A DNA stretch of 64,000 nt, from positions 1-64,000 of the forward strand of contig CALVAX010000009.1 of NCBI GenBank assembly GCA_944325605.1. The letters run 5' to 3'. The stretch is from Candidatus Gastranaerophilales bacterium. Lineage in GTDB: Bacteria > Cyanobacteriota > Vampirovibrionia > Gastranaerophilales > Gastranaerophilaceae. Below, piece by piece: positions 192 to 32,748 of the stretch. The first letter of the stretch is position 1; each line of letters opens with the position of its first letter. A program made the translations under genes and the position numbers. The notes under the pieces are model-generated. The model searched no databases and had not been told where the DNA came from. It was given only the letters and a program-made list of their open reading frames with translations.

Positions 192-1958
192 TTATGAACT
201 GAACATCGTAAACGTTTTTTCCACGTTGTTGTTAATCAACTGTTTAACTGTATCATATTCCGTCGTAAGGGCTGATATTTCAAGGTCAAGTTTCTGCATA
301 TCTATATCAAGTTTTTCTTCTTTACTGTTAAGTTTGCTTTTCTTGATAGTATATGCAAGTTCAGCCTGTGTGATTGCGTCATCATCTGTAACTTCAACAA
401 CATAGCCGTTTTCGGTATATCTATCCTGGAAGTAGTAGTTGTCGCTGCTCATTGAAGAGATAAAGTATTGAGCATTAAGCAAACTGTTGCTTAAGAATTC
501 TTTATCCGTAATCTGGTCGTTTTCTGTCCAGCCGCTGTTACAAAGGTTGTTGAACATTGAAGAATAAAATTCTGCCAGATACATATCTATTGTAGTTTCA
601 GCATTAGGATCACCGACTTGCCACATGTAATAAGGGTCATCAGTTACGTAGCTTGATTTATCACCTCTCTGTACGATATAATATGTCTGGTCAAACCCAT
701 TCATACCCTGAGCGAAAAATGTCAGGAATGATTCAGTCAAACTTGACAAACTGATAGCTTTTGAACCATAGTTTTTATTTTTGTTTGCCTTTTTTGAAAC
801 CCAGCAGTTATGTTCATCACTCATATTTACAACATCATTGAATGCGTCTACAGAGTGGTTTCTCGGCGGGTATTCTATCTCTTGATCCAACAAAGACAAT
901 GTTTCCTGAATTGCGTACTGGAAAGCGTTCTGAGTCAGTTCATCCGCATTTCCAAGATCAAAAAGTGTTGAAACTCCATTGAACAATTCATCTAAAAACG
1001 TCAACAAGGCTAAATCCGTATCAGAAGTATCTTCAGGAATACCGCCTTTAGAATACCCCAATAGATCCATAATACCACCGTATGTCCAGTATGCAAAACC
1101 TCCGGTGAATGCGGCACCAATACCGGCAACTATCTTTTTCCAGAATCCGTTTTTATTCTTATCACCTGTCATTGCAAAAGTGATATCGCTGGTTAATAAA
1201 TCCGTAAAATCAAATTCCGTATCAGTTGTCCTGTTACCGTTTACAACAAAGTAATTCTGATTTGCGTAACCCTTATCCTTAATTGTCGTCTGCAAATTTA
1301 AATCGATAGGAGAACCATCAGGTCTTGTCAATTCATTACCTTCGTCATCTTTGCCAAAATTAAATGACAAAGCGCCAACAAGATCTCTGTCTGCCTGAGA
1401 GGATGTTTCTGTAGTATTTGCAATCAACAAATCCAAATAAGCTATCAAGTCAGTAGTAGTCATTTCAGATGCTGTTGTTTTATCAAGCATCGGTGCGCCC
1501 ATACCAACATTTTCCAAAAGCCCGACCGCACGGCAGGATGCGGCATCTGATTCACTCATACCGCCTGTTCTAACCATCTGATTCAAAAAGTTCAAGAACA
1601 GTTCTTCTGAGGGTTCACATCCGTCTTTCGGAATACCTGCGGCTTCTGCTGCAGCCGCCATCTTGCTGTCTAAAACAATCTTGCCGTCGCGTGCTGTTAT
1701 AAAGTATGGTGCATAATTATTTATGGCCGACGGCCTCATCATAATATCGTAAGTCAAATCAAATGTATTATCGCCTGTACCGTCCGGATCCCAAACTAAC
1801 TTAGATGCATTTAATGCACTCTGATATTCTGCCGTTGCCGCTTCAAGGTCACGGGTAATGGACAGCTTTTGCTGTGCTATCTGCATTGACTGAAATTCAC
1901 AGTTAGCTTTTCTTGCTGTTATGGCTAAAAATCTTGCTTGTGATGCTGCCAGTCCCAT
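192..1958 (-). CDS. Coiled-coil protein with putative membrane segment, sigma-28-type promoter
   Basis: Protein of 588 residues, function not recognised. The N-terminus begins MGLAASQARFLAITARK and continues as an amphipathic, coiled-coil-like helix (about residues 1-55). The middle is Asp/Asn/Thr-rich with a glycine-rich hydrophobic stretch at about 275-300 (AGIGAAFTGGFAYWTYGG) that could insert in a membrane. The last 65 residues are again a coiled coil ending NNVEKTFTMFSS. There is no cleavable signal peptide. The ATG is preceded by GAAAGGAAAG. A close match to a flagellar class III (sigma-28/FliA) promoter lies at 2003-2030. Helices at both ends, no signal peptide and a flagellar-type promoter would suit a substrate of a type III-like exporter, but that is inference. 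It lies just downstream of the phage module, but its own promoter argues that it is not a phage gene. Confidence 0.8.
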   Translation of the reverse strand: MGLAASQARFLAITARKANCEFQSMQIAQQKLSITRDLEAATAEYQSALNASKLVWDPDGTGDNTFDLTYDIMMRPSAINNYAPYFITARDGKIVLDSKMAAAAEAAGIPKDGCEPSEELFLNFLNQMVRTGGMSESDAASCRAVGLLENVGMGAPMLDKTTASEMTTTDLIAYLDLLIANTTETSSQADRDLVGALSFNFGKDDEGNELTRPDGSPIDLNLQTTIKDKGYANQNYFVVNGNRTTDTEFDFTDLLTSDITFAMTGDKNKNGFWKKIVAGIGAAFTGGFAYWTYGGIMDLLGYSKGGIPEDTSDTDLALLTFLDELFNGVSTLFDLGNADELTQNAFQYAIQETLSLLDQEIEYPPRNHSVDAFNDVVNMSDEHNCWVSKKANKNKNYGSKAISLSSLTESFLTFFAQGMNGFDQTYYIVQRGDKSSYVTDDPYYMWQVGDPNAETTIDMYLAEFYSSMFNNLCNSGWTENDQITDKEFLSNSLLNAQYFISSMSSDNYYFQDRYTENGYVVEVTDDDAITQAELAYTIKKSKLNSKEEKLDIDMQKLDLEISALTTEYDTVKQLINNNVEKTFTMFSS

Positions 1959-2002
1959 TAAGTCCGCTTTCCTTTCACTTTAGTAACAATTCTTTGCTAT
2001 GG

Positions 2003-2030
2003 TTATCGGCATTTTAAGGTTGAAACTTTA
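2003..2030 (-). promoter_or_regulatory. Sigma-28 (FliA/SigD)-like promoter
   Basis: On the minus strand TAAAGTTT (2030-2023) is followed after 12 nt by GCCGATAA (2010-2003). The FliA consensus is TAAAGTTT-N11-GCCGATAA and that of SigD is TAAA-N15-GCCGATAT, so both boxes are exact and spacing is one nt longer. Predicted start about 1995, giving a 5' UTR of about 37 nt before the ATG at 1958. No other GCCGATAA was found by eye in the window. Confidence 0.65.
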
Positions 2031-2120
2031 AAATATAAGAGTTTTTTTATAAGATTTTTTACAAATCTTTACATTAAAAACATTAGAACGGAGATTTATC
2101 GCCCGATTGTCTTATCGCCC

Positions 2121-2351
2121 TTATTTAACAGTTATTATAAAGTCATAAATTTTGTCTATCTTCTCCTTCATTTCTCCAAAATTTTCCTTTAAGTCATTAA
2201 AACTGTGGATTGAAACAAATTTTTCCTCTATATCATCAATAATTTCTCTGTGCTTCTTCTCCAGCTGCTCAGGGGTTATCACAATCCGCTGCTGCACTAA
2301 AAATATCATCACCGCAACCAGTATCGGTGCATAATTAAGCAAATTTTCCAT
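2121..2351 (-). CDS. Small membrane protein with coiled coil, holin-like position
   Basis: About 76 residues starting MENLLNYAPILVAVMIF. One N-terminal hydrophobic helix (about residues 5-22) is followed by a charged coiled coil containing KKHREIIDDIEEKF and EKIDKIYDFI. I place the start at the ATG at 2351 because AGAGGA lies 9 nt upstream. A longer reading from a GTG at 2399 would overlap the stop of the lipase gene by 4 nt (GTGA). One TM helix plus a coiled coil, as last gene of a phage module that also codes an amidase, fits a holin or XhlA-like accessory, but sequence alone does not prove it. Confidence 0.6.
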   Translation of the reverse strand: MENLLNYAPILVAVMIFLVQQRIVITPEQLEKKHREIIDDIEEKFVSIHSFNDLKENFGEMKEKIDKIYDFIITVK

Positions 2352-2395
2352 CCTTAAATTCCTCTTATTATTTCTGCGCTCTAAAACAATGTCCT

Positions 2396-3109
2396 TCACA
2401 ACCTTTTTAATAATTTGTATGAATTTATAAAAAAAGGGTGCAATTCCATATATTCTTTAACCGGCACAGCCTCGCAGCAATCCCCGAAATTTTCAAGCTT
2501 ATGTGATTTTATCGACCCGAAAATCCGCTTTACAAAACACTGATTGGTTTTTGACGGAACAACAAATGTCCTTCCGGGGGTTTCTCTTAATTTTGATACA
2601 AGGTCGGAAGCGTCACGGTAATTGGTTATCAGATTTGAATAATCCGCTTTTGCGTCATATAATCTTCTGCTCAGGCCGAATGCGTTGAATGTTACTGTTC
2701 TTACCCTGTTTTTTATCCCAGTATAAGCGGCCTCGGTGCCGCCTTCGCTGTGCCCGACAAGCGTCAGTCTGTCATTGTAAAACCCGTATTTTTCTTTACA
2801 TTTTTTGTAGTAAAAATTTGCAAGCCTCATCTGGAGACTTTTGCCAAATATGCCCATAACAAGGTTTTCTATATGATCCTTAATACTTTTGCTGTCTGTG
2901 CCAAGATAACAAATCACATATTCTTTACCGTCAAAATACAAAAGCCCTTTAAAATTCGTCTTTTGCTCGTGAAATCCGTCCAGTTTTTTCCATTGATTAT
3001 AAACCTTTGCGCCTGCTCCGGCGTTCATTGCCCTGCCCGCTATCTCACAAAGTATTTTATATTCATTCGCTTTTTTGTGTAAATCTTCAAAATTCAAAAT
3101 CTGTTTCAT
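2396..3109 (-). CDS. Alpha/beta hydrolase, class 3 lipase-like (DUF2974 type)
   Basis: A 237-residue protein with the nucleophile elbow GHSEGG, Ser at about residue 121, preceded by the strand DRLTLV. Candidate triad partners are an Asp in NYRDASD (about 166 or 169) and a His in SIKSHK (about 203). The spacing resembles cytosolic lipase-like phage and bacterial DUF2974/Mbeg1-like proteins. No signal peptide. It sits between the large terminase and the small membrane protein, where phages often keep lysis genes, so it may help release or modify host lipids. The substrate cannot be read from the sequence. The family assignment is fairly firm, the phage role is inferred. Confidence 0.7.
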   Translation of the reverse strand: MKQILNFEDLHKKANEYKILCEIAGRAMNAGAGAKVYNQWKKLDGFHEQKTNFKGLLYFDGKEYVICYLGTDSKSIKDHIENLVMGIFGKSLQMRLANFYYKKCKEKYGFYNDRLTLVGHSEGGTEAAYTGIKNRVRTVTFNAFGLSRRLYDAKADYSNLITNYRDASDLVSKLRETPGRTFVVPSKTNQCFVKRIFGSIKSHKLENFGDCCEAVPVKEYMELHPFFINSYKLLKRL

Positions 3110-3136
3110 ATTTTCCCTTTCTTTAACTGTTCGTTT

Positions 3137-4426
3137 TTAAAGCTTTATTGGCCAGTAATAATCAACAAGGTATGATGCCGCATCCATCGGGTGAGATAAA
3201 AACTTAAGTTCTTTAGTCTGCTTTATCTGCTGATATGTCGGCACATCTATTCTTGAGCTGCCTTCCTGGTATTTGAGGTTGTAAATATTGTAGAGAAGTT
3301 TTTCGCATTTTTTGTCAACATAAAGGCACACTTCTCCGTCCGCCGACCTGACTTTTGCATTGAAAGCTGCAATTCTGTTCTTTATCGGCGGATTAAATGC
3401 TTTTATCCTGATATCGACGTCGTAACCGTATTTTAAAAGTTTCTTTTTGATTATTACGTAATTTGTGTATTCACTTGTGCAGGAACGGTTGTCGCCCGAG
3501 GCATCTCCGTTTATGATAATCTTTCCGCTATGTGCCGGATAACGCCTGCAGAATTCGTCACAAGCATGTGCGGTTGTAGTATTTTCGAGAACAATTTCGT
3601 CAAAATAAAAAACTTTATCTTCAGTTTTATGGGCAAGAACCCACGCCATAGGGTCAACGTTAAAGTCACAGCTTATATGTAGATCCATATCAGGACAATA
3701 TTGAATATCCCTGATGTTTTCGTCCGTAAAATCTTTGACAACAAGTCCTTTATTATATTCGCCGTTTTTTGCAAGAACAAAAATATTGTAATATTGTTCA
3801 TCATACAATTTTTTAAGTTCGTCGCAAAACCCTTCCGGAAGATAGATATTTTCCGTCGTCGGCGCTGTTACAAGTCTGTAATTCGGCGCAGGATTTTCAA
3901 CAAAAGTTTTGTAAACCCAGCCTTTTTGCATTTCGGGGTTTGTATGCGCAAAAATTCTGTATGTAAAATTTTTCCAATCCGGCTTTTTCTGCTGGCGCAT
4001 CCGGCTCAAAAGCATCTTGAAGGTGTCATAAGGAATATCAGACATTTCTTCAATCTCTACAAAACCGAGATTTAAAGATTTAAGTTTATTTGGTTCGTCA
4101 AAATGCCGGAACAGGATTTCACTTCCGTTATAAAATGAAAGTTTTTGCAAGGACGAAGACCACTCAAAATCTACGCCCTCTCTAAATCCCATATTTTCAA
4201 GATGTTCAAAATAAGTCTGAAGCGTGGTATCTCTGACGAGCGTATACGTCTGTGCACCGACAAGTCCGCGTATTCCGGGAAATTTTAAGCTTAAAAGAAT
4301 CCCGAGAAGAGAACCCGCAAATGTTTTTCCTGAGCCGTAACCGCCTTGATATACCGCAACATCAAGTGTGTATCTGTGCGGAATTTCCAAAAACTCTCTT
4401 TGTGCTTTCAGTAATTTGTATATCAT
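3137..4426 (-). CDS. terL: Phage terminase large subunit
   Basis: DNA-packaging motor of about 429 residues. The ATPase half has Walker A GGYGSGKT (about 28-35) and Walker B GFVEIEEM (about 121-128). The nuclease half has acidic clusters SCDFNVDP (about 252-259), INGDASGDN (about 306-312) and HPMDAASYLVDYYW near the C-terminus, matching the Terminase_3/RNase H-like nuclease. I start at the ATG at 4426 because AAGGA lies 8 nt upstream. The open frame extends to 4516, but that adds a hydrophobic peptide and runs into the hairpin at 4472-4518. Both catalytic halves look intact, so the protein could be functional. Confidence 0.92.
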   Translation of the reverse strand: MIYKLLKAQREFLEIPHRYTLDVAVYQGGYGSGKTFAGSLLGILLSLKFPGIRGLVGAQTYTLVRDTTLQTYFEHLENMGFREGVDFEWSSSLQKLSFYNGSEILFRHFDEPNKLKSLNLGFVEIEEMSDIPYDTFKMLLSRMRQQKKPDWKNFTYRIFAHTNPEMQKGWVYKTFVENPAPNYRLVTAPTTENIYLPEGFCDELKKLYDEQYYNIFVLAKNGEYNKGLVVKDFTDENIRDIQYCPDMDLHISCDFNVDPMAWVLAHKTEDKVFYFDEIVLENTTTAHACDEFCRRYPAHSGKIIINGDASGDNRSCTSEYTNYVIIKKKLLKYGYDVDIRIKAFNPPIKNRIAAFNAKVRSADGEVCLYVDKKCEKLLYNIYNLKYQEGSSRIDVPTYQQIKQTKELKFLSHPMDAASYLVDYYWPIKL

Positions 4427-4471
4427 TATTTTTATTCCTTTTTGTTCACAGGGTAAAACAAGGTAAGAAAA

Positions 4472-4518
4472 AGGTGCCGCAATGAGGAGCCACAGATAGG
4501 AGAAAAATAGCGGCACCT
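4472..4518 (-). terminator. Long-loop hairpin with U-run between portal and terL
   Basis: Perfect 9-bp inverted repeat: AGGTGCCGC (4472-4480) and GCGGCACCT (4510-4518) with a 29-nt loop. On the minus strand the second arm is followed by TTTTTCTTACC, as expected for a factor-independent terminator. The loop is unusually long. It separates portal from large terminase and lies just upstream of the terL ribosome-binding site, so it could also be an attenuator or RNA processing site. Confidence 0.5.
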
Positions 4519-4554
4519 GAGAATATAAATAACTGATGTCAAAATAATCAGAAT

Positions 4555-6267
4555 TTATTTATTGGGGTTATGCGGTGTATTTTGCTTTGCAGATGACTCT
4601 TCAGTAGCGGAGGTGCTGTCATTTTCAGCCTTTAAGAACAGGTTTGCATTCTCAATTCCGTACTGTTCCAGCGCAAATTTAAAACATTCCAGCCAGTCAA
4701 CTTTTTGTGCAACTTCCTGAACTTCCGCAAATGATTTCACGACTTCAAAAAGTTCTTTCAATCTCATCTTGCGCTCAAAAGTTGCCTTTCTGTCGCCGTA
4801 TCTGTAAATATAATTGCCGTTTCGAATTTTGTCGTCAATTTCCAGAAAAGAAACTTTGCCTTTATCATGAATTCCTATAACTTCTGTTCCGAGTTTAAAA
4901 TTTGCAATTATATCAGCTGTCTTTTCAACCATCGGCACAATTACTTTGCGGTTAATTGCATCAAGAAACATATTCAATCTCGCCTCCTGCCCGTTCGCAG
5001 AGTAATTCAATTCCGTGGCCGTCCTTGCTGTCGTCTGAGTGTTGCCTGCCATATTTTTGAAGATTCCTGTCGCACTTTCAATAGTGGATTTAAAATAATT
5101 CAGAAAATCCCATCCTACCATTGCTTTATCAAAACTCAACGGTATCGGCTGATTTGGCATTAAGGCGGAATCGTATTCTATAATTTTTCCGGGGCTTACG
5201 ATTTGTTCTCCGCTAAAACAACCTTTTGGCGCAAGATAAGGCGGATTCATCATCAAAGCCAGCGCATCTATTTGTTTGTTCAAAATTGTTGATGAAAGAT
5301 TGTTCAAAATCAAAGCCACCCTCAATGGTGAAATTCCACGTCCGGTTGCCGGTGATTCAATTATGTTTGCATGAATAAAAGGATTGATAACAAACGGATT
5401 TGGTTCAAATCTTATCACTTCACGTCTTGCCGCAACGACAATCAGCCAGTTTTTTAGAATTCTGCCGTCTGCAAGTTCCAAATCTCCCCAGAATTCCAAA
5501 ATTTCAACTTTGTTGTCTTCAATTGCTTTGTCAAAATTTTTAGTTTTTCTTCCTGCCACCACTCCTTTCAGGGTTTCCAATTTGTCTTCTGCTAATAAAT
5601 TGTTTGCCTTGTCAGATATTATTTCATCTATCGTTGAATATGTTCTGTAAATTTTTGCACATCTGTCCCAGTTGTCACGGTCTGATTTATCAAAAACAAA
5701 ATCCTCAGATTTTATGTGTTTGACTTTAGCGTTGTCATAAACGAGTTTTTCTTCAACTGCAAAGGTTCTATGATGCGGGTCTTCCAGCTGTTCCTGAAGG
5801 CTCATAACCCTTCTTGTTCGTTTCACTTTCGTTTCCCAGCCGACAAAAAGCGTACATTCGCCGGTTTCAACAATCCCGTTTATTACTTTTTCAATCTCAT
5901 CTTCCAGCTTCATCTGTTCGAAAGTGTTTACCAGCATTGATTTCTGCTTGTTTGCATACTGCTGGCTTTCAGGGGTTGCGCCGGACACGTCAAACATCGC
6001 CTCCGGATGAGAATACAAATTGTCACTGATGTGAGATTTTAGAGTCTGCGCAAGTTCGTAAATATCAGGAAGTTTAATTTTATTGTCCCAGCCGTTAATT
6101 TTCGGGATATCGTTATTGTAAATAGCCTCGCGCATCAGCCGGTTATCCGTAATCTGAAGGCTTCTCAAATCATTATATCTGTCATATCTGTCAGCAATAT
6201 CCGCCACAAGACTGTTTTCCAGTTCCGGCGTTATTACCGTTGTCAAATCTTCTGTCTCTATTTTCAT
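4555..6267 (-). CDS. Phage portal protein
   Basis: A 570-residue protein resembling podovirus-type portal (head-to-tail connector) proteins. Supporting features are the size, an acidic N-terminus followed by long alpha/beta segments, a Trp-rich wing-like region (TYSTIDEI, EFWGDLELADGR), the stretch NPFIHANIIESPATGRGISP typical of portal stem regions, and a Gln/Asn-rich helix IFKNMAGNTQTTARTATELN near residues 400-420. It lies directly between the GNAT gene and the large terminase, where portal genes are expected. It would form the dodecameric ring through which DNA enters the head. The C-terminal tail is Ser/Thr/Asn-rich and probably flexible. I rely on composition, length and context, not on a single catalytic motif. 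Confidence 0.8.
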   Translation of the reverse strand: MKIETEDLTTVITPELENSLVADIADRYDRYNDLRSLQITDNRLMREAIYNNDIPKINGWDNKIKLPDIYELAQTLKSHISDNLYSHPEAMFDVSGATPESQQYANKQKSMLVNTFEQMKLEDEIEKVINGIVETGECTLFVGWETKVKRTRRVMSLQEQLEDPHHRTFAVEEKLVYDNAKVKHIKSEDFVFDKSDRDNWDRCAKIYRTYSTIDEIISDKANNLLAEDKLETLKGVVAGRKTKNFDKAIEDNKVEILEFWGDLELADGRILKNWLIVVAARREVIRFEPNPFVINPFIHANIIESPATGRGISPLRVALILNNLSSTILNKQIDALALMMNPPYLAPKGCFSGEQIVSPGKIIEYDSALMPNQPIPLSFDKAMVGWDFLNYFKSTIESATGIFKNMAGNTQTTARTATELNYSANGQEARLNMFLDAINRKVIVPMVEKTADIIANFKLGTEVIGIHDKGKVSFLEIDDKIRNGNYIYRYGDRKATFERKMRLKELFEVVKSFAEVQEVAQKVDWLECFKFALEQYGIENANLFLKAENDSTSATEESSAKQNTPHNPNK

Positions 6268-6280
6268 CTTTTACCTTTCC

Positions 6281-6823
6281 TTAACTTATCCGCACAAATT
6301 TAGTGTCAGATTTCAAAAGTGAATAAACTTCCACATCCGCCAATTCTCCGTTTTTCAGGGTTTCTCCGCGCAAAACGCCGTCCTTTTTAAAGCCCGAATA
6401 TCTTAATATCGCTCTGACACGCGAATTAAACGGATAAATCTGTGCTTTTATTTTTTTAAACTTTAAAGTGTTAAAACAATAATCAAAAAATTTGTCTGCT
6501 GTGGATTTTACAAAATTTCCCCAGAATTTCTTTTCAAAACAAGCCGTGATTTCCCCGCCGTGAAGCTCTTTATTGTTTCCAATCAGGTTGTCGATATAGA
6601 TAAATCCTGCAAATTCACCGCTTTTTGAATCAAGAACAACAAAAAATAACCGTCCGCAGTTCTCTATTTTTGAAATTATTGTCTGATAATTTATGTCAGG
6701 TGCATAATCATCATTCAAAAACTTTGCATATCTTAAATATAAAAATATTACATTTGAAAGATATTCAACATTTTCAAAGCGTGAATGCACTCTGTCGATT
6801 ACAAGGTTCAGGAATTTACACAT
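6281..6823 (-). CDS. GNAT-family N-acetyltransferase in the phage module
   Basis: 180 residues with a RimJ/RimL-like GNAT pattern: the beta strand EFAGFIYIDNL, a charged helix (FVKSTADKFFDYCFNTL), then KKIKAQIYPFNSRVRAILRYSGFKKDGVLRG, where the N-x-R-x-x-x-x-L-x-x-x-GF signature is the usual acetyl-CoA/C-terminal GNAT motif (quoted here only as consecutive family elements). It overlaps the preceding gene by 16 nt and is followed closely by portal, so it is cotranscribed with structural genes. Acetyltransferases are occasional phage cargo; the acceptor could be a capsid protein, a host ribosomal protein or a small molecule. The Shine-Dalgarno is weak. Confidence 0.75.
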   Translation of the reverse strand: MCKFLNLVIDRVHSRFENVEYLSNVIFLYLRYAKFLNDDYAPDINYQTIISKIENCGRLFFVVLDSKSGEFAGFIYIDNLIGNNKELHGGEITACFEKKFWGNFVKSTADKFFDYCFNTLKFKKIKAQIYPFNSRVRAILRYSGFKKDGVLRGETLKNGELADVEVYSLLKSDTKFVRIS

Positions 6824-7179
6824 ACTTTTTCAAACTTTACATAAGCATCATCTGTTGAAAATGTGCTCAGTTCACCTTTCAAAATTTTTGCTCTTATGTT
6901 GTTCTGAAGCCCGAGGAGAGCATCTGCCTGAATTCCGTTAATATAAGTTTCCTGCTTGTTATGCCTGTTGTAATACTTGTAGACAGCATATTTTGAAAAC
7001 ACGTACCCGTCAGGAACATCTGCAATCTTTGTGTAAACCTTCTTTTCTCTTTTAGCTTTAAGCTCTTTTGCTCTTTTCATTTCATCCTGAAATTCGGTTT
7101 CGATTTTCATTCTGATTAAATCATCCAAAGATGCACTGCTCAAAAGCATTTCTTCAATATTTTCATCTTTGTTTTTCAT
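6808..7179 (-). CDS. Phage-module protein of unknown function
   Basis: 123 residues, not recognised. The N-terminus is acidic and helical (NIEEMLLSSASLDDLIRMKIE), followed by a Lys/Arg-rich helix (KRAKELKAKREKKVY) and a more globular C-terminal half with several Tyr (SKYAVYKYYNRHNKQETY). It lies between the small terminase and the GNAT gene on the same strand, overlapping the GNAT start. A gene between terS and portal is often a packaging accessory or DNA-binding protein. The basic helix would allow nucleic-acid binding, but this is only suggested. Confidence 0.65.
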   Translation of the reverse strand: MKNKDENIEEMLLSSASLDDLIRMKIETEFQDEMKRAKELKAKREKKVYTKIADVPDGYVFSKYAVYKYYNRHNKQETYINGIQADALLGLQNNIRAKILKGELSTFSTDDAYVKFEKVCVNS

Positions 7180-7198
7180 AAAAAATCTCCTTATTTAT

Positions 7199-7633
7199 CT
7201 AAATTTTGTCTTCATCAAGGTTTGAGATAGTAATAATTCTGGCATGACGGTATTCATCATCCTGATTTTCAGAATTAAATCCAAGGTATTTACAAAGACT
7301 TTCCAGAGCTTTAAGTCCGGCAGAAGTGTCCCTGAGTTTCTTTTTACCGGTATAATTACCTTCTTTATCCAGAACATCTTCTTCTTCCAGAGAAAATTCA
7401 GCTATTTGAAGAAGTTTTTGAATTACGTAGCCTTTATTTACCCTGAGGGAAGTTATCTGGCTTTTCAACTGTTCTTTTATTTCATTTATTACAAGTTTGT
7501 TTGAAAGAAGCTCGTTTGAAACTGCCTTTAAATCCTTTGATTTATACCCTGCTTTTCGGGCTGAAACCTCGCCGTCAAGCGACTTTATATACTCGGTCAC
7601 AAACCGTTTTTGCTGTTGTGTTAATCTGTTCAT
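7199..7633 (-). CDS. terS: Phage terminase small subunit
   Basis: 144 residues with the Terminase_2/XtmA pattern: N-terminal LTQQQKRFVTEYIKSLDGEVSARKAGYKSKDLKAVSNELLSN-like DNA-recognition HTH (the typical F-V-x-E-Y and A-x-x-AGY spacing), a central oligomerisation helix (LQIAEFSLEEEDVLDKEGN) and a conserved SAGLKALESLCKYLGF helix. It would bind the packaging site and hand DNA to the large subunit. It lies 139 bp from the connector gene, the largest gap inside the module, so a separate transcript may start here. Unusually, terS and terL are separated by three genes (unknown, GNAT, portal). Confidence 0.88.
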   Translation of the reverse strand: MNRLTQQQKRFVTEYIKSLDGEVSARKAGYKSKDLKAVSNELLSNKLVINEIKEQLKSQITSLRVNKGYVIQKLLQIAEFSLEEEDVLDKEGNYTGKKKLRDTSAGLKALESLCKYLGFNSENQDDEYRHARIITISNLDEDKI

Positions 7634-7772
7634 AATTTACATTTCTTAGTAAAGTTTGTACTTTTTGAAAAAAAATTGTATAATAATATTGCTATTTATA
7701 TTTCGGCTAGTGTAAATCTTAACAGGGGGCAATGAAAACTTCCTGTTTTTTTTGTCTTTTTTACACTGAAAC

Positions 7773-8411
7773 CTAATATCTGCGCATATTTACAAAAGGT
7801 GCAGCCTCTGAATCAACTGTAATTCTTGATCGCATGGAAGCAAGTGTACTGTTGTACATGCTCATCCAATAGCTGAATTTTACATGCTGCGGGTTTGCTT
7901 TTAAGCGCATACAGGTTCCGTAAACAATAACGGGTTCCGCAAATTCATCTGGAATTAACGACATGTCAGTTTCGGCTTCCAGAAGTTTCTTTTCTGTACC
8001 TTCAGCACTAATAACCGTATTGGCCGTATAATATACAACATTAACAGGTTTGTCTTTATCAAATTCAGGCATCAGGAGTTTGTCATTAAAACAGCTGTAT
8101 GTTCCTGAAGGTGCTTTGCCGTTAATAAAAACTTCCGGTTTGTCAAAATATTTGTATACATGCCCGTCTATCAAAATAGAGGCTATCCTTCCATATATAG
8201 TATTATCAATTTCCGTACTATTTGCCGGAAGATTAAGCGTGGTTTTCCTCAACTTAAAGTTCCAGTTATCATAATTGCAGACCTCGGTATTTACCAAATT
8301 GATTATGTTTTTAATCTTTTTATGATCGTTTTTGGTTAATTCAGAGAATGCATTAACCTGTTTGTAATTGAGTTCTGCCAGACATTTGTTTACTAAATCA
8401 AAATAATTCAT
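7773..8411 (-). CDS. Phage head-tail connector/adaptor protein
   Basis: 212 residues resembling podovirus-type adaptor proteins that bind below the portal. The N-terminal helices (FDLVNKCLAELNYKQVNAF and IKNIINLVNTEVCNYDNW) are the pattern seen in many phage 'tail tubular A-like' or gp4-like adaptors: a helix, an Asn/Asp-rich turn, then W-N-F-x-L. A beta-rich centre (TLNLPANSTEIDNTIYGRIASIL) and a C-terminal helix with FVNMRRY complete it. It is placed next to the scaffold and capsid genes. The assignment uses length, N-terminal pattern and context. Confidence 0.6.
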   Translation of the reverse strand: MNYFDLVNKCLAELNYKQVNAFSELTKNDHKKIKNIINLVNTEVCNYDNWNFKLRKTTLNLPANSTEIDNTIYGRIASILIDGHVYKYFDKPEVFINGKAPSGTYSCFNDKLLMPEFDKDKPVNVVYYTANTVISAEGTEKKLLEAETDMSLIPDEFAEPVIVYGTCMRLKANPQHVKFSYWMSMYNSTLASMRSRITVDSEAAPFVNMRRY

Positions 8412-8439
8412 ATTTTCTCCTTGAGTTGTTTTGAAATCC

Positions 8440-8465
8440 TGCGGACGGCAGAAATTCCGTCCGCA
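8440..8465 (-). terminator. GC-rich hairpin between scaffold and connector genes
   Basis: Inverted repeat GCGGACGG (8441-8448) and CCGTCCGC (8457-8464) with an 8-nt loop, in the 76-bp gap between the two genes. On the minus strand the stem is followed by AGGATTTCAAAAC, which lacks a strong U-run, so it may be an mRNA stability or processing hairpin instead of a full terminator. Confidence 0.5.
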
Positions 8466-8487
8466 AGATTTATTTAATTTGCCGTCA

Positions 8488-9177
8488 TTATCGGATTAAG
8501 CCCTTTCTTAATTGTTCCATTATTGCTTTTTCGTTTCTGGCAAATTCCGCACTGCTCATTCTGCCGATTTGCTCACGGGTAAATACCCTCGCATTTGCAT
8601 CTGCCGCATTGGAGTTTTGTGCATTTGCTCTTAACTTCTCTTTGGCGGCCTTGTTTTCGTCATTTATTGATTTCTCGTGAGCCTGTTTCTGCAAATACCC
8701 GTCAATCGCACCTTGTTCCAACGCTTCTACCATTTGGGATATCTGCTGAATTTCATCCTTGTCAACTACGGCATTTGAATTTTTCAAATATTCCAGTACC
8801 TGTTTTCGTCCGTTCTGGTTGAAGAATTCCGGATTTTCCTTCAAAAAGGCTTCTATCCCCGGAACTATTCCGCCTGCCGGAACGGCCTGAGGCATGGGCT
8901 GAATTTGCTTGGCTATAATCTGTTGCGCCTTATACAGTATATAGTTCATCAAATGTTGTCCTTGCACCGGATTGATAATGCCTGACTGCATAAGACTGCC
9001 GATTATATTCATATCTCTCATCGCAGTTTGTCTTATAGAGTCTGCACTTCCTGTTCCGGTATTTGACACGACAGCCCCTGCACCAGGGATAAAACCGGAT
9101 GCCGGATTATTCATCAAACCCGTTTGCTGAGGCACGGCAGCAGATGAAATTTGATTTAATGTATTTGTATTCATCAT
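8488..9177 (-). CDS. Phage scaffold-like protein
   Basis: 229 residues, almost entirely helical and polar, with a Pro/Gly/Asn-rich N-terminus (SSAAVPQQTGLMNNPASGF), Gln-rich helices and a basic C-terminal helix (SAEFARNEKAIMEQLRKGLIR). This composition, plus position next to the capsid gene, is that of assembly scaffolds, whose basic C-terminal helix binds coat subunits. There is a segment ENPEFFNQNGRKQVLEYLK. It follows capsid in transcription order, the reverse of the usual scaffold-then-capsid order. Function rests on composition and context. Confidence 0.65.
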   Translation of the reverse strand: MMNTNTLNQISSAAVPQQTGLMNNPASGFIPGAGAVVSNTGTGSADSIRQTAMRDMNIIGSLMQSGIINPVQGQHLMNYILYKAQQIIAKQIQPMPQAVPAGGIVPGIEAFLKENPEFFNQNGRKQVLEYLKNSNAVVDKDEIQQISQMVEALEQGAIDGYLQKQAHEKSINDENKAAKEKLRANAQNSNAADANARVFTREQIGRMSSAEFARNEKAIMEQLRKGLIR

Positions 9178-9202
9178 TGAATTCTCTCCTTATTTCTTTT
9201 AA

Positions 9203-9241
9203 AAAAGCACCCGTTGCCTAAACACGCCAGCGGGCGCTTTT
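9203..9241 (-). terminator. Rho-independent terminator after the capsid gene
   Basis: Arms AAAAGCACCCG (9203-9213) and CGGGCGCTTTT (9231-9241). Read on the minus strand the stem AAAAGCGCCCG/CGGGTGCTTTT ends in six T residues. It lies 20 nt past the capsid stop and before the scaffold gene, so capsid mRNA can end here and be made in excess. Confidence 0.75.
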
Positions 9242-9261
9242 ATATGTGAAAGCCTGCTTGC

Positions 9262-10158
9262 TTAACCTTCTAAGTCCTCAGAACCTGAATCCGTATCTGA
9301 TGATGAGGCAGGATCTTTGACTACCATTTTAGCGAGTGCTTTAGGCTGAACAGTTTTTGCACCATAAAGGTAAAGTCCTCTTACCAAATCTGAAAAACTG
9401 TCTTTATCACGCAAGCTTTCGATTTTTGCCAATTGTGATGCAAAAGTGATTGCATCGTTTGTACCTGCAAGAATATAGTAATTATTTGAAACCGGTGTTA
9501 GATTGGTACTAACAAGAACATCCATGCCGGCAATTCTACCGATTGCACCTTCCCTGAGAGTTTCATCCGCAACGTTATTTGCGCCGATAAATTCTGTGCT
9601 TTGAAGAAGATAAGATTCAACAAGAGGGTTAATAACAACCCACGGACGCTTACCTGCCTTCACTGCATTAGAATCCTTAAGTTTCATTGCTAAATTCACA
9701 AACTGCTGATAAATAGTTGTTTTATCAAGGGTTACAGGAGCAGAATCTGAGCCGACAATATTGTCTTCATCCACATTTGCATGCATTGAAAGAAGATAGG
9801 CATCCTGCACTTCTTCAATTGCATTTTTGGCATTTTGAAGATGGGCTTCCATAATATCTGTATTTGCCTGAACCTGCGCAACATCATTAATCTTAAATGC
9901 GAAGAACTTTTTCTGATCAATGACAAGATCTGTTGATGTCGGCTCTAATTCACTGTAAGAAATCGAACCAGTTGTTAGTGTTGAAATCGTTACAGGAGCC
10001 GGTGTAATGATTTTTACCTTGTCGCCCTGATTTTTAATTTCTCCTTCATAGTTTCTGTTGACACATTGAAGCATTACACACTCTTTTTCAAGCATGGTGT
10101 TTAGTTTTGCACTCCATATTTCAGGAATAAAAGCTGAGTAAGAATTTGTGTCTGTCAT
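9262..10158 (-). CDS. Phage major capsid protein
   Basis: 298 residues. The start TDTNSYSAFIPEIWSAKLN and the following GEIKNQGDKVKIITPAPVTI are characteristic of phage coat proteins of the HK97-fold group (an N-arm, then a G-D-x-V-x-I strand). Further features are QKKFFAFKINDVAQVQAN, the helix AIEEVQDAYLLSM, and VINPLVESYLLQS followed by a G-R-I-A-G-M-D-V-L-V-S-T-N strand typical of the A domain. The tail is Ser/Asp/Glu-rich. Start supported by AAGGAAAAAG upstream. It lies next to the scaffold-like gene and is followed by a clear terminator, so it is probably expressed strongly. Confidence 0.88.
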   Translation of the reverse strand: MTDTNSYSAFIPEIWSAKLNTMLEKECVMLQCVNRNYEGEIKNQGDKVKIITPAPVTISTLTTGSISYSELEPTSTDLVIDQKKFFAFKINDVAQVQANTDIMEAHLQNAKNAIEEVQDAYLLSMHANVDEDNIVGSDSAPVTLDKTTIYQQFVNLAMKLKDSNAVKAGKRPWVVINPLVESYLLQSTEFIGANNVADETLREGAIGRIAGMDVLVSTNLTPVSNNYYILAGTNDAITFASQLAKIESLRDKDSFSDLVRGLYLYGAKTVQPKALAKMVVKDPASSSDTDSGSEDLEG

Positions 10159-10219
10159 GATTTTCTTTTTCCTTTCTTGGTTTTCAAAGTGTAAGTACTA
10201 TTTATATAAATGAGCAGCG

Positions 10220-11740: not shown

Positions 11741-11742
11741 AC

Positions 11743-12240
11743 CTAAACCTCTTTCATTTTTGCTTTGTACCATCTGATTTTTGAACGTATAAAGTCCCCT
11801 GCCTCATTTTTGCCAACCCATGGATACGGCGGAATATAAGTAATATCAGGCTTGCCGTAACTGGTTGTAGAAGGATGCCGGATGCCGAATTCATAATGCG
11901 TCATAACTCCGGATTTATCAGTCTTTAGCCCGTATTTAAGAACAATTCCGGCTGATAATTGCATTGCGGCTTCAAATTGAATAGGTGTTATAGGATACTT
12001 TCCGCAATGTTGTCTGTCCTGAAAACCTTCCATTGCGCATAGAGCAATCCCGATTGAACCGGTATTTCCGCCTCCGGTGTGTGCAGCATAACAGCCTTTT
12101 ACACATACAAGATTATCCTCCGGCCTGAATTTTCCCTTATAAATCCTTCCGTCCCCGCATACCAAAAAATGATAATAGTTCCTCTCTGCTGCCGTCGGAT
12201 AATATTCTCCGGCAGTCCAGTGTAATATAATTCTTTTCAT
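11743..12240 (-). CDS. N-acetylmuramoyl-L-alanine amidase (Amidase_2 endolysin)
   Basis: 165 residues with the AmpD/PGRP-type zinc amidase fold. Zinc ligands and catalysis: His7 in ILHWTAGE, His122 (about) in GIRHPSTTS and Asp132 in KPDITY, with Lys130, spaced as His154/Lys162/Asp164 of AmpD. The central AAHTGGGNTGSIGIALCAM is typical. It has no signal peptide, as expected for a lysin released by a holin. It is the second gene of the phage module. It would cleave the amide between MurNAc and the stem peptide during lysis. Confidence 0.9.
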   Translation of the reverse strand: MKRIILHWTAGEYYPTAAERNYYHFLVCGDGRIYKGKFRPEDNLVCVKGCYAAHTGGGNTGSIGIALCAMEGFQDRQHCGKYPITPIQFEAAMQLSAGIVLKYGLKTDKSGVMTHYEFGIRHPSTTSYGKPDITYIPPYPWVGKNEAGDFIRSKIRWYKAKMKEV

Positions 12241-12248
12241 AGCTTGTC

Positions 12249-13874: not shown

Positions 13875-15221
13875 ATGCAAAACATTGACGACAGCAGATT
13901 AATTGACCTGAAACAGAGGGTTAAGGAAAAACTGAATGAAACGACACTTTTTAAGTTTAAAGGAACGGTATCAAAGCTTCTGGGCCTGACAGTAGAAGTC
14001 AAACTTCCGGGACTTAAAATCGGTGATTTATGCTACATTGAAACTGAAACAGGAGAGAAAAAACCTGCGGAAGTCGTAGCATTTAAAGGAGAAGCGGCGC
14101 AGCTGCTCTTACTTCTTGACGGAAACGGAATTGGTCAGGGAAGCTTAGTCACATCAATGGGAAAACCGATTATTATACCTGTCGGGGACTTTCTTCTTGG
14201 AAGACTTATAAACCCTATGGGAGAACCGATTGACGACAAGCCTCTTGATACAACGGGAGCAGTCTGGAAACCGATAGAAGGGCCGCCGCCCGGGCCTTTT
14301 GAAAGACCTATTATTACCGAAATATTTTCAACAGGAGTCAGGGCAATCGACAGCTGCATGACAATGGGCTGCGGACAGCGTCTGGGCTTGTTTGCAGGGT
14401 CAGGGGTCGGCAAAAGTACGCTTCTTGGCATGATTGCGAGAAATTCTGACGCAGACGTCAACGTTGTTGCGCTAATCGGAGAACGCGGCAGGGAAGTTAA
14501 AGAGTTTGTAGAGGATTCTCTCGGTGAAGAAGGTATGAAAAAATCCGTTCTTGTCTGCTCTACGGGCGACCAGCCGCCTTTGATAAGACAAAAAGCTTTA
14601 CTTACAGCCACTGCCGTTTGTGAATACTTCAGAGATCAGGGCAAAAAAGTTTTCCTTATGACAGATACAGTAACCCGTTGTGCAATGGCGGGCCGCGAAG
14701 TCGGGCTTTCAATCGGGGAACCGCCGACTATGAAAGGTTATCCGCCGTCTATTTTTTCATGGCTTCAAAAAGTTCTTGAAAGAGCCGGAAACAGCCCGAA
14801 AGGGTCTATAACCGCACTTTATACGGTTTTGATGGAAGGCGATGACATCTCAGACCCGATTGTCGACATTGTAAGAGGTATTGTCGACGGGCACATATTC
14901 TTGTCGCGTAAAGTTGCAGAGATGAACCACTACCCTGCAATCGACGTTCTTGGAAGTATTTCAAGGCTTATGTCAGCAATTGCAACACCCGAACACAAGG
15001 CCGCGGCAGGAAAAATGCGTGCGATTATGGCTCTTTACAGGGAAAACAAGGACTTGATTGATGTCGGTATGTACCAGCCCGGAACCAACCCGAAACTTGA
15101 TATAGCAATCGAAATGATGCCAAAAATCAATGCCTTTCTGCAGCAGAGAACTTCAGATATTGTAAGTATGGACACAACGGTCAGCACGCTTGTTGAGATG
15201 ATGAAGGATGTGGATATTTAG
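13875..15221 (+). CDS. fliI: FliI/SctN-family type III export ATPase
   Basis: 448 residues, the usual length of flagellar/type III secretion ATPases. N-terminal beta barrel (about 20-90), then the FliI-like GDFLLGRLINPMGEPID, Walker A GLFAGSGVGKSTLLGMIAR (Gly/Lys at about 174-181), ALIGERGREVKEFVED, the Walker B region VFLMTDTVTRCAMAGREVGL and SIGEPPTMKGYPPSIFSWL, and a helical C-terminal domain. These signatures separate FliI/SctN from F1 and Rho. It would energise and unfold export substrates at a type III gate. No flagellar gene flanks it: zupT is on the left, a small unknown gene on the right. It may act with the soluble FlhA C-domain protein at 31273-32748. Its promoter suggests a leaderless mRNA. 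Confidence 0.93.
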   Translation: MQNIDDSRLIDLKQRVKEKLNETTLFKFKGTVSKLLGLTVEVKLPGLKIGDLCYIETETGEKKPAEVVAFKGEAAQLLLLLDGNGIGQGSLVTSMGKPIIIPVGDFLLGRLINPMGEPIDDKPLDTTGAVWKPIEGPPPGPFERPIITEIFSTGVRAIDSCMTMGCGQRLGLFAGSGVGKSTLLGMIARNSDADVNVVALIGERGREVKEFVEDSLGEEGMKKSVLVCSTGDQPPLIRQKALLTATAVCEYFRDQGKKVFLMTDTVTRCAMAGREVGLSIGEPPTMKGYPPSIFSWLQKVLERAGNSPKGSITALYTVLMEGDDISDPIVDIVRGIVDGHIFLSRKVAEMNHYPAIDVLGSISRLMSAIATPEHKAAAGKMRAIMALYRENKDLIDVGMYQPGTNPKLDIAIEMMPKINAFLQQRTSDIVSMDTTVSTLVEMMKDVDI

Positions 15222-19086: not shown

Positions 19087-19336
19087 TTCATGTGCCTCCT
19101 TTGTATAAATGTATATTTACTACCACACTGCAAAATTTACGCAATGTAAATTTGCAATCAACATATTACTACAAAAAATAAAAAATTTGTATTTTTTACA
19201 CTTTAAAATTATTTTTTTACAAAACTTTAAATATTCAACCCCTGAAACGCGCTGTAATTGATTATCTTACCGGATAATTTTTATTAAGTTTTATTAATCA
19301 TATATTTTGGATATTTTTTATTATAGAATTAAAGCT

Positions 19337-20041
19337 ATGAACACAAAAATTCTTGTAATAGACGACGACAGCGCAATAAACGAACTTATAAAGGTAAATC
19401 TGGAGCTTTGCGGATATAAAGTAATTCAAGCCCTCGACGGAACAAAAGGCTTTGCACTGTGCAAACAGGAAAACCCGTCGCTTGTAATTCTGGATGTTAT
19501 GATGCCGGAGGTTGACGGGTTTACGGTAGCACAGAGAATTCGCAAAAACGAAGAAACCAAAAACACACCTATTTTAATGCTGACAGCACTTTCACAGGTA
19601 AACGACAAGGTGAAAGGTTTTAATATCGGCGTTGACGATTATCTGGTGAAGCCTTTTGAGATGGAAGAACTTCAGGTAAGAGTAAGAGCGCTTTTGAAAC
19701 GCTCTAATCAGATTCCTGAAAGCATCGCCACAAGAGAACTTCAAACCCTTGGAGAAATTACTCTTCTGCCTGAAAATTACAGTGTTCAAATTAACGATAA
19801 AATCGCAAAACTGACCCCGATTGAATTTGATATTTTTAATCTTCTTTTTCAGAACCACGGGAACATGGTTTCATCCCAGAAACTTTTGAAAGAAATCTGG
19901 GGCTATGCGCCGGACGACGACGTTGAAACAATCAGGGTTCACATCCGCCATCTCAGATCAAAACTCGACAAAATTTCCGACGGTAAAAAATACATAGAAA
20001 CAATCTACGGCGGCGGATATAAACTGAATATCAACGGGTAA
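19337..20041 (+). CDS. OmpR-family response regulator (orphan)
   Basis: 234 residues: receiver domain (about 1-118) with KILVIDDDSA, phospho-acceptor Asp in LVILDVMMPEVDGF, and the Thr and Lys of MLTAL and VKPFEMEEL; then a winged-helix domain ending RVHIRHLRSKLDKISDG and YIETIYGGGYKL. The start is put at the ATG at 19337; the frame opens at a TTG at 19307 but the receiver begins right after this ATG. No histidine kinase gene is adjacent. The receiver resembles cyanobacterial RpaA/RpaB-type regulators in plan, which often pair with distant kinases. Confidence 0.9.
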   Translation: MNTKILVIDDDSAINELIKVNLELCGYKVIQALDGTKGFALCKQENPSLVILDVMMPEVDGFTVAQRIRKNEETKNTPILMLTALSQVNDKVKGFNIGVDDYLVKPFEMEELQVRVRALLKRSNQIPESIATRELQTLGEITLLPENYSVQINDKIAKLTPIEFDIFNLLFQNHGNMVSSQKLLKEIWGYAPDDDVETIRVHIRHLRSKLDKISDGKKYIETIYGGGYKLNING

Positions 20042-31272: not shown

Positions 31273-32748
31273 ATGTTTAATAAAAAAATGCAGTATATTA
31301 TAAAAACCTGTTCCGGAGAAAACATGCAGGAACTTCAAAATCTTCTGAATGAAATGTCCATGAACGGCTGGGAATTATACAGCATGAATGAAGTGGAAAC
31401 AGATGACGGTGTAAAATTTAACTGCATTTTTATGAGCGAAACCCAGCAGGAAGAAGATCTTTCAACATCTGACGTTATAAACATTTCGACCTTCAAAAGC
31501 CAGATGGAAAAAATGCTCTCCCCGCAGCTTTCGCCTTACGAAGCATGCCTTGATATTCAATCAAAAATCAAAAGCCAGCAAAATAAAATTACAAAAATAA
31601 AAAAAGAACTTGAAAAAGAAGCCCCAGCTTCAGTTAACCGAAAAAAACTTAACGACAAAATTTCGGCAAACTTGAAAGAACTTGACGATTTAAAATTGAA
31701 GCTGGCAAAAACGACATCTCCTGATGTTATGTTTGAAAAATTAACAGAAGAAAAACTATCAATTCATTTGAGTGAAGAACTTATTGAATATGTAGAAAAT
31801 GAATCCGAAGATGCTCAGGAAACTCTTCTTGCTGAAACTGTAAAATCAAGGCTGAAATTAACGGAAGAATTGGGCTATGTTATCCCTAAAATTATTTTTC
31901 AGGATGATGACAATCTGAACCCGTATGAATTTTCAATAAAAATTCGCGGCATGGATGTATATAGAGCATGCGTTTATCCAAATTACACAATGTACTTTGC
32001 TGACGAACTTCACCTGGAAAATAAAATCAAAAATTCCATTTACGATACAGACTTTATAACAGGCAAAAAAATTGTCTGGATTGAAAAAAGCAAAACAAAA
32101 GACTTTTGGGAAAAAGGAATAAACGGTGCAGAATTTATCGCAAGAGCACTGGAATATTCAGCAATCAGATATATAGACGAATTAATGGACTACAGCGACA
32201 TTGAAAAATATATAGATGTCGTAAGTAAAAAGAATGAATTTCTTGTTGCAAACCTGATTCCTGATTTTATAACACTTTCGGATCTCAAATTTGTCCTGAC
32301 CAGCCTGATAAAAGAAAGAGTTTCAATAAAAGACATAACCTATCTTTTTGAAAAAATGAACGATTTTGCAGAAGAAGGCGCAAAATCAGATCTTCTGAAA
32401 AAAGTCCGCTTGGCGCTTTCCAGAAAAATATGCTCAAAATACGCAAACGAAAACGGAGTAATAAGCCTTATAGAAGTTTCTGAAAAAACACTGGATGCGT
32501 TCATGCCGAATTTTGAAGAAGATGATGATTTTATAATAAAAATTGACGGGGATTTTGCGGAAAAACTTGCACAAAAAATCTCGAAAAAGGCAAAACAACT
32601 GGAAATAGAAACACCCAAAATTCTCGTACCTCTGGAATTAAGACATTTGTTTTTCACACTTCTTTCAAACTACCTGAATAACGTTGCTGTTCTGGCAAGA
32701 GAAGAAATCGGCTGCAATTTTGGAATAGAAATTGTTGCAAATGTTTAA
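31273..32748 (+). CDS. Soluble FlhA/SctV C-terminal domain protein with DUF4177-like N-terminus
   Basis: 491 residues, no TM helix. N-terminus (about 5-60) resembles DUF4177 (MQYIIKTCSGENMQELQNLL, NGWELYS). A coiled linker follows (about 95-150). From about residue 190 to the end it follows the cytoplasmic ring domain of FlhA in order: LTEELGYVIPKIIFQDDDNL (FlhA: A-x-E-x-G-F-x-x-P-x-x-x-x-R-D-N), PYEFSIKIRGMDVYR, LIPDFITLSDLKFVLTSLIK, ERVSIKDITYLFEKM, KKVRLALSRKICSKYA and ETPKILVPLELRHLFFTLL. The normal eight-helix gate domain is absent. FlhA ring domains form nonamers that receive chaperone-substrate complexes. Here a free ring could act as a cytosolic docking hub, perhaps with the FliI-type ATPase. 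Coupled to udp. Confidence 0.88.
   Translation: MFNKKMQYIIKTCSGENMQELQNLLNEMSMNGWELYSMNEVETDDGVKFNCIFMSETQQEEDLSTSDVINISTFKSQMEKMLSPQLSPYEACLDIQSKIKSQQNKITKIKKELEKEAPASVNRKKLNDKISANLKELDDLKLKLAKTTSPDVMFEKLTEEKLSIHLSEELIEYVENESEDAQETLLAETVKSRLKLTEELGYVIPKIIFQDDDNLNPYEFSIKIRGMDVYRACVYPNYTMYFADELHLENKIKNSIYDTDFITGKKIVWIEKSKTKDFWEKGINGAEFIARALEYSAIRYIDELMDYSDIEKYIDVVSKKNEFLVANLIPDFITLSDLKFVLTSLIKERVSIKDITYLFEKMNDFAEEGAKSDLLKKVRLALSRKICSKYANENGVISLIEVSEKTLDAFMPNFEEDDDFIIKIDGDFAEKLAQKISKKAKQLEIETPKILVPLELRHLFFTLLSNYLNNVAVLAREEIGCNFGIEIVANV

Follow-up and report, generated by a model that had tools for sequence, protein, structure and literature searches.

Sigma-28-class SASQAR proteins as candidate substrates of a second type III export apparatus in Candidatus Gastranaerophilales

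The locus

The window analysed here is a stretch of 64,000 nucleotides (nt) at the start of contig CALVAX010000009.1 from a Candidatus Gastranaerophilales bacterium (assembly GCA_944325605.1), and corresponds to contig C9 of a genome of 2,146,857 bases in 30 contigs that is 99.81% complete. At its left end lies the target of this study, a gene for a protein of 588 amino acids (aa) that belongs to a family named SASQAR, a label coined here from the N-terminus MGLAASQAR.... The same window encodes two proteins related to type III export components and a candidate regulator of the family (Table 1).

The preliminary description of this DNA, which was made from its letters, had placed coiled coils at both ends of the protein, and the predicted model does show a helix at each end. 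It had also reported a Gly-rich hydrophobic segment. This is present at about residues 273-306 but is weak, with a best 19-residue Kyte-Doolittle mean of 1.08, and residues 271-310 are filled in about half of 38 aligned rows. No signal peptide was seen, a judgement made by eye only.

Table 1. Features of the target locus and related genes in the window
Feature	Position	Strand	Basis
Target gene, 588-aa SASQAR protein (N-terminus MGLAASQAR...)	192..1958	-	Open reading frame (ORF), ATG start
Conserved N-terminal helix, residues 2-49	1812..1955	-	Predicted model and paralog conservation
Conserved C-terminal helix / coiled coil, residues 526-587	198..383	-	Predicted model and paralog conservation
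-35 box TAAAGTTT of sigma-28-type promoter	2023..2030	-	Exact; spacing kept in paralogs and relatives
-10 box GCCGATAA of sigma-28-type promoter	2003..2010	-	Exact; spacing kept in paralogs and relatives
Promoter spacer, 12 nt	2011..2022	-
HLR1-like direct repeat TGTAAAGATTTGTAA	2059..2073	-	43 nt upstream of TAAA
FliI/SctN-type export ATPase, candidate energiser of second export system	13875..15221	+	Pfam T3SS_ATPase_C
RpaA-like OmpR-family response regulator, candidate reader of HLR1-like box	19307..20041	+	Sequence match
Stand-alone FlhA cytoplasmic-domain paralog, membrane half not found	31273..32748	+	FHIPEP positions 321-653 only

A paralog family with conserved ends

What had been described as a single protein of unknown function is in fact one member of a large family. 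A search of the target against its own genome gave 27 matches, which fall into 14 ORFs of 333-657 aa. All 14 begin with MG[LM][AS]A[ST]QAR and carry a coiled coil at the C-terminus, and their middles are unrelated or very diverged. Fifteen columns are invariant over the 14 paralogs, all of them in the first 21 or the last 31 residues of the target: M1, G2, A5, Q7, A8, R9, L11, T14, R16 and E21 at the N-terminus, and D558, E560, T566, E567 and E580 at the C-terminus. At the DNA level, three paralogs (C5a, C10 and C8a) reach 100% identity in at least the final 500 columns of the alignment, against 82-97% in the first 400 and roughly 30-60% in the middle; C24 and C5b follow the same pattern less sharply. 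From these alignments, the family looks like conserved shells placed round exchangeable middles.

Apart from the target, the 13 paralogs are scattered single genes among ordinary chromosomal genes. The stretch from C8:100085 to the contig end (L180) carries a promoter with the same sequence as the one before the C15 paralog and breaks off at the contig edge, and is probably a cut-off fifteenth paralog. Two further family members lie at the starts of contigs C9 and C10. Given members at these two starts and at the L180 edge, the family repeats may break the assembly.

No credible family was found for the 14 paralogs in Pfam, NCBIfam, PHROGs or the PDB sequences, and the flagellin N-terminal domain PF00669 matched none of the 14. 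Weak coiled-coil matches to PspA, OVT1 and Nmad5 were disregarded.

The family also appears to exist in a much shorter form. A second site with both promoter boxes exact (C22:16130-16157) precedes a pair of genes for 90-aa and 108-aa proteins in the same genome. The 108-aa protein aligned end-to-end with the joined family ends (probability 94.8, E 5.4e-8, 105 columns), and the controls, comprising one reversed, five column-shuffled and seven other proteins of this genome, all stayed at or below 1.5. On this alignment, the 108-aa protein is the SASQAR core with the insert missing. It was also tried as a needle subunit of a type III secretion system, which it may resemble in its length and a P-x-x-P turn; the needle families of Pfam and NCBIfam and the needle chains of the PDB gave no match, and the candidate was rejected.

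A sigma-28-type promoter

Both boxes of the FliA promoter previously read upstream of the target, with their spacing of 12, are exact. Searching for further sites, as the preliminary description had proposed, gave the exact pattern TAAAGTTT-N10..13-GCCGATAA at two places in the genome, before the target and at the C22 position given above, and a reversed control in the 2.147-Mb genome gave 0 matches. A relaxed pattern, TAAAG-N16-CCGW, occurred at 50 sites against 43 in the control; the genome-wide count was rejected as promoter evidence since it showed no enrichment, and the evidence therefore lies in the position of the site before family members rather than in its abundance.

Upstream of the paralogs, the loose site T[ACG]AA-N17-[CT]CG[AT] was present in 13 of 14 cases, and in none at spacings of 11-16 or 18-22, while 1000 dinucleotide shuffles gave a mean of 0.37 of 14 and a maximum of 4. 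The strict form, TAAA-N17-CCG[AT], preceded 7 of the 14. Relatives were taken as the 79 best-scoring of at least 509 loci, and many of the closest matches of the target among the listed loci come from Candidatus Gastranaerophilales metagenome-assembled genomes. Seventy-four loci were usable, after the removal of four without a start by motif (three AAGQAR, one partial) and one with less than 130 nt upstream. The loose site stood at N17 in 62 of these 74, at N16 in 8, and at spacings of 13-15 and 18-19 in 0-1, counts that are not independent events because the promoter sequences are related to one another.

A FliA-family sigma factor, whose absence from the genome had been set beforehand as a finding that would count against the promoter, is encoded at C2:247207-247869 (244 bits, cut-off 189.6). 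Together with the conservation across paralogs and across the order, this gives the sigma-28-type promoter strong support. The genome holds two FliA-family candidates, the C2 FliA and a FliA-like sigma beside flhB2. In both this genome and a flagellated relative, G010, FlhB2 is followed directly by this FliA-like sigma of 220 aa (L194 6281-8040; L196 6798-8552), which may, judging from its place, be a dedicated sigma of the second export system described below.

Before fliE, flgF, flhB2, fliI, the fliN-like gene, fliA, fliJ and the C22 paralog of this genome, the site was looked for and none was found; export-gate and sigma genes without the site are what an early/late hierarchy leads one to expect. 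At eight loci (L149, L152, L153, L158, L159, L161, L164 and L169), further genes lie 50-90 nt behind a TAAAG-N16-CCGW site, and three of these loci (L149, L161 and L169) also have an HLR1-like box at -33/-34. The genes behind these eight sites are likely, on this pattern, to be other members of the regulon.

An HLR1-like second box

As regards the sigma-28 boxes the earlier reading of the promoter stands; it had left out a second conserved box. A TGTAA-N5-TGTAA direct repeat with a period of 10 matches at no fewer than 8 of 10 positions in 67 of 75 promoters (13 from this genome and 62 from relatives), where shuffles average 6. Sixty-five of the 67 repeats lie at -32..-34 or -42..-44 before TAAA, one helical turn apart. 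Read on the opposite strand, the TGTAA repeat is the (T)TTACA direct repeat of period 10 that defines HLR1. In the accessible text of a published account, the HLR1 consensus is (G/T)TTACA(T/A)(T/A)NN(G/T)TTACA(T/A)(T/A), an RpaB element (PMC11633204), and the portions available of two papers describe cyanobacterial HLR1 upstream of a promoter as an activating placement (PMC11633204; PMC6331805).

A candidate for the reader of this box is encoded in the window. The best PDB match of the RpaA-like regulator was an RpaA chain, 9dvt (E 1.2e-80; next best 7e-38), and its best NCBIfam model was RpaB, below the cut-off of that model. We infer from these matches that it may bind at the HLR1-like box. 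According to the accessible text of Di Rienzi et al., homologues of RpaA, RpaB and NblS occur in these non-photosynthetic cells, maybe with another function (PMC3787301); the HLR1-like boxes before SASQAR genes offer a concrete, testable target for the RpaA/RpaB homologues. Elsewhere in the window, a gene for a 628-aa coiled-coil protein (40925-42811, minus strand) has the repeat TGTAAATTTTTGTAA upstream and no sigma-28 site.

A probable second type III export apparatus

The FliI of the window scores over the fliI_yscN subfamily cut-off, and under the equivalog cut-offs of FliI and SctN. The FlhA-like piece, for which together with FliI the preliminary description had made the target a candidate substrate, is only a soluble C-terminal-domain paralog; the full-length FlhA is on C17. 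From its domain content, the paralog is a possible dock for chaperones or substrates. A second cytoplasmic-domain-only FlhA protein is encoded at C8:86748-87836 (L057 8710-10494). At least two FHIPEP matches were present in 143 of the 145 genomes of the order, so that the FlhA-domain paralog may be order-wide.

The remainder of the apparatus is distributed over several contigs. One full-length FlhA (FlhA2) is encoded in the genome, in a FliE-FliF-X-FliH-FlhA operon on C17. A full FliP-FliQ-FliR set on C4 is preceded by FliO and a FliN/SctQ-like gene, C10 encodes FlhB followed by the FliA-like sigma, as well as FliJ and a FlgE-like protein, and C27 carries FlgF/G-FlgG-FlgB-FlgC. Homologues of FlhA/SctV, FlhB/SctU, FliP/Q/R, FliI and FliF, by which type III export was recognised, are thus all encoded, and no flagellin over cut-off was found in the genome. 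FlhA2 scored 693.9 against the FlhA equivalog (cut-off 772.1) and 582.2 against that of SctV (cut-off 692.25), so that by these FlhA scores the set is classed neither as flagellar, for which flagellin was also looked for, nor as an injectisome. The X of the operon is a 353-aa protein without known family that occupies the usual place of fliG, between fliF and fliH (L056 11890-12948), and the gene was there in every operon copy examined (L056, L181, L197, L200 and L201).

Across the order, the SASQAR family was found in 145 of 145 genomes and in all 36 genera, FlhA in 145, FliP in 144 and flagellin in 48. Among the 48 genomes with flagellin, 46 had two or more FliP copies, against 0 of the other 97, and strong matches to the flagellar kind of FlhA (E <= 1e-240) were present in 45 of the 48 and 0 of the 97. 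At least two FliP copies, then, go only with flagellin, which points to two distinct systems, one of them persisting after the loss of flagellin. Flagellated G010 has a flagellar FliPQR-FlhB-FlhA operon, with an FlhA of 872.6 bits (over cut-off), that adjoins a second operon, with an FlhA of 690.5 (under cut-off). Copy counts and G010 operons together indicate that the second gate is not the flagellar gate and that it outlives flagellin.

Family members and export genes are also neighbours in relatives. At L068, a homologue of the target is followed directly by fliI. At L200 and L201, which belong to the same genus, the fliE-fliF-X-fliH-flhA2 operon follows about 6.6 kb after the end of a C22-type paralog, and behind this paralog are encoded proteins of 273 aa, 90/93 aa and 108 aa. 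The earlier suggestion that the target is a type III substrate gains from this linkage to fliI and the operon and from the co-occurrence of the family with a second FlhA/FliP gate in a flagellin-less genome; export itself is a prediction from gene content and order.

Predicted fold

AlphaFold models of the target (predicted local distance difference test, pLDDT, 80.1; predicted template modelling score, pTM, 0.51) and of a short paralog from C20 (pLDDT 81.0, pTM 0.42) were compared with known structures. For the C20 paralog, rows 1-18 of the VIA ranking were all flagellar axial proteins, with Z of 7.6-9.1, a range in which, according to the tool, a common long-helix arrangement can score. Cap-filament and early-filament complexes reached 9.1, flagellins and filaments 7.6-8.8, FlgL/HAP3 8.2, and rod and hook proteins 7.7-8.1. 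For the target, cap-filament chains appeared among several unrelated coiled-coil hairpins. The likeness to translocators raised in the preliminary description gives way, in this ranking, to a greater resemblance to flagellar axial proteins. An axial-protein fold of the SASQAR proteins is thus a suggestive lead from the models.

A phage-like neighbourhood

Positions 192-12464 (minus strand) hold a phage-structural cluster (amidase, tail-like, capsid-like, TerS, portal and TerL) that ends at the target gene, and no integrase or replication gene was seen in it. In relatives, 20 loci encode its TerL at 79-97% identity; at L068, the identity is 82%, against 86-95% for three neighbouring host genes. 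The TerL was less than 60% identical to every phage record, and IMG/VR held only short contigs of the cluster. On these comparisons, the cluster has the look of a prophage that was domesticated, or of a gene-transfer-agent-like element. Foldseek of the 588-aa model against viral structures returned nothing at E <= 0.001, and a phage origin of the SASQAR family was rejected as none of the 50,697 phage records matched.

Discussion

A flagellin-like substrate family most simply explains the promoter class together with the spread over the order, the neighbouring export genes, the architecture of two conserved ends and the existence of a core-only form. On balance, we lean towards regarding the target as a late-class, sigma-28-controlled, flagellin-like substrate of a second, non-flagellar type III apparatus that persists without flagellin. 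The apparatus is proposed to comprise FlhA2, FlhB2, FliP/Q/R, FliO, FliI, FliH, FliJ, FliE, FliF, the FliN/SctQ-like protein, rod proteins and the FlgE-like protein, and the substrate, going by the models, to be built as a flagellar axial subunit, with a highly variable domain set into a hairpin of the terminal helices. Other promoters would serve the genes of the basal body and the gate. FliA, or the FliA-like sigma beside flhB2, would then transcribe the 13 sigma-28-class paralogs, possibly aided by an RpaA/RpaB-type response regulator at the HLR1-like box. Finally, the proteins would leave through the gate and either make up or decorate a structure on the cell surface, with the middle domains as its variable exposed part. 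In this scheme the promoter, regulon, second box, family, distribution and linkage to export genes are observed, and the identity of sigma and regulator, the export, the assembly and the surface role are proposals.

Several results weigh against this interpretation. FliF, FliQ, FliR, FliI, FlhA2 and FlhB2 fall below their NCBIfam equivalog cut-offs (FliP and FliE pass), and none of the flagellin, FlgL, FliD or needle families was recognised by sequence among the SASQAR proteins. Foldseek of both models against the PDB gave nothing at E <= 0.001, and the VIA scores lie in the long-helix range noted above. One of the 14 paralogs has no sigma-28-type site, and the target copy stands where a phage-like cluster ends, a position that hints at a possible different role. 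Additionally, the flagellin promoters of flagellated relatives, tried as a positive control for the N17 site, had an unexpected outcome and were set aside: the site was found at N17 in 1 of 12 and at N16 in 2 of 12, the latter two in genomes of one family, with 7 of 19 usable regions left unparsed by the start pattern. Since flagellin genes rarely have the N17 site, the sigma that reads the SASQAR promoters may not be canonical FliA.

The principal alternative, which we consider unlikely, is that SASQAR proteins are effectors or translocators, released or injected by the second system, with the N-terminal helix as secretion and chaperone signal and the middles as active parts. Variable middles between conserved shells, most clearly in the three paralogs with identical last 500 columns and middles at roughly 30-60%, would suit effectors, as would scattered single genes of the sigma-28 class that are linked to export genes. 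However, an effector signal needs the N-terminus only, so that conservation of both ends is more in keeping with an axial protein, and the 108-aa version consists solely of the two ends. The fold ranking of the models also favours flagellar axial proteins, and the hydrophobic segment is weak and not conserved.

It is improbable that export genes and sigma-28 regulon are remnants of a flagellum in reductive loss, the SASQAR proteins being hook-associated or accessory proteins without present export. Rod and hook-like genes do persist, and in the accessible text of two reports incomplete flagellar sets in many members are viewed as flagellum loss (PMC3787301; PMC4040986). Yet nearly every genome retains the gate genes, the second set is distinct where flagellin exists, and the substrate family shows expansion, not decay; a universal second gate and an expanded family do not fit decay. 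Least probable of all is a tail, release or attachment factor of the adjacent phage-like cluster (domesticated prophage or gene-transfer-agent-like), for although the order TerL, 76/92-aa protein, SASQAR gene is kept in many relatives, with the TerL conservation given above, and six IMG/VR contigs hold a SASQAR relative, the other 13 paralogs are, unlike phage cargo, placed among ordinary chromosomal genes, none of 50,697 phage records matched the family, and the sigma-28-type promoter is absent before three tested phage-cluster genes.

The flagellin-like substrate and its apparatus would thus probably represent a surface or secretion system new to the literature, and not a flagellum in decay. 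The accessible text of an earlier study lists two flhA genes among the shared flagellum-related genes (PMC3787301). Among the listed papers and accessible passages on flagella and secretion in Gastranaerophilales, Melainabacteria and Vampirovibrionia, from a collection in which subscription journals are mostly absent, none describes a second export system or the SASQAR family. The second gate and the sigma-28 regulon suggest that a lineage of animal and human guts has a conserved secretion or appendage system, instead of having lost a flagellum, and, if true, this would be another case of a flagellar export machine turned to a new purpose. A wider proposal can be offered only tentatively, namely that Gastranaerophilales possess, throughout the order, a type III machine of a third kind, derived from a hook-basal body and apart from the flagellum. 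It would build or secrete a non-flagellin appendage of diversifying axial proteins with exchangeable middles, from late promoters that combine sigma-28 with ancestral RpaA/RpaB light/clock regulators reused without photosynthesis.

Comparison with known systems

As in the FliA (sigma-28) regulon, TAAAGTTT ... GCCGATAA boxes stand before the late genes, and the export-gate genes are without the site. The spacer is 12 nt here, whereas that of E. coli FliA promoters is 11; the promoters are coupled in 67 of 75 cases to the upstream direct repeat, and the flagellin genes of relatives rarely have the site. This repeat shares with the HLR1 of cyanobacteria, the element of RpaB/RpaA, its other-strand reading, its period of 10 and its upstream position. 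In contrast to HLR1, these putative binding sites belong to gut bacteria that do not photosynthesise, and they precede sigma-28-type promoters.

Flagellar axial proteins (flagellin, FlgL, FliD, hook and rod) would, going by the models, resemble the SASQAR proteins in their paired terminal helices and variable insertion; they have in common the sigma-28-class promoter and the linkage to type III export genes, and they gave the best structural rows for a short paralog. They differ in that SASQAR proteins match no sequence family and occur as 14 divergent copies in a genome without over-cut-off flagellin, and in that the structural alignment starts at about residue 48 of flagellins, which we take to be the D1 rather than the D0 part. 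With injectisomes, the apparatus has in common an export gate without flagellin, and FlhA2, FliI and FlhB2 are below the equivalog cut-offs of flagellar and injectisome models alike. In contrast to injectisomes, each of these three proteins scores higher with the flagellar than with the injectisome model, and rod and hook proteins (FlgB/FlgC/FlgG and the FlgE-like protein) are encoded here.
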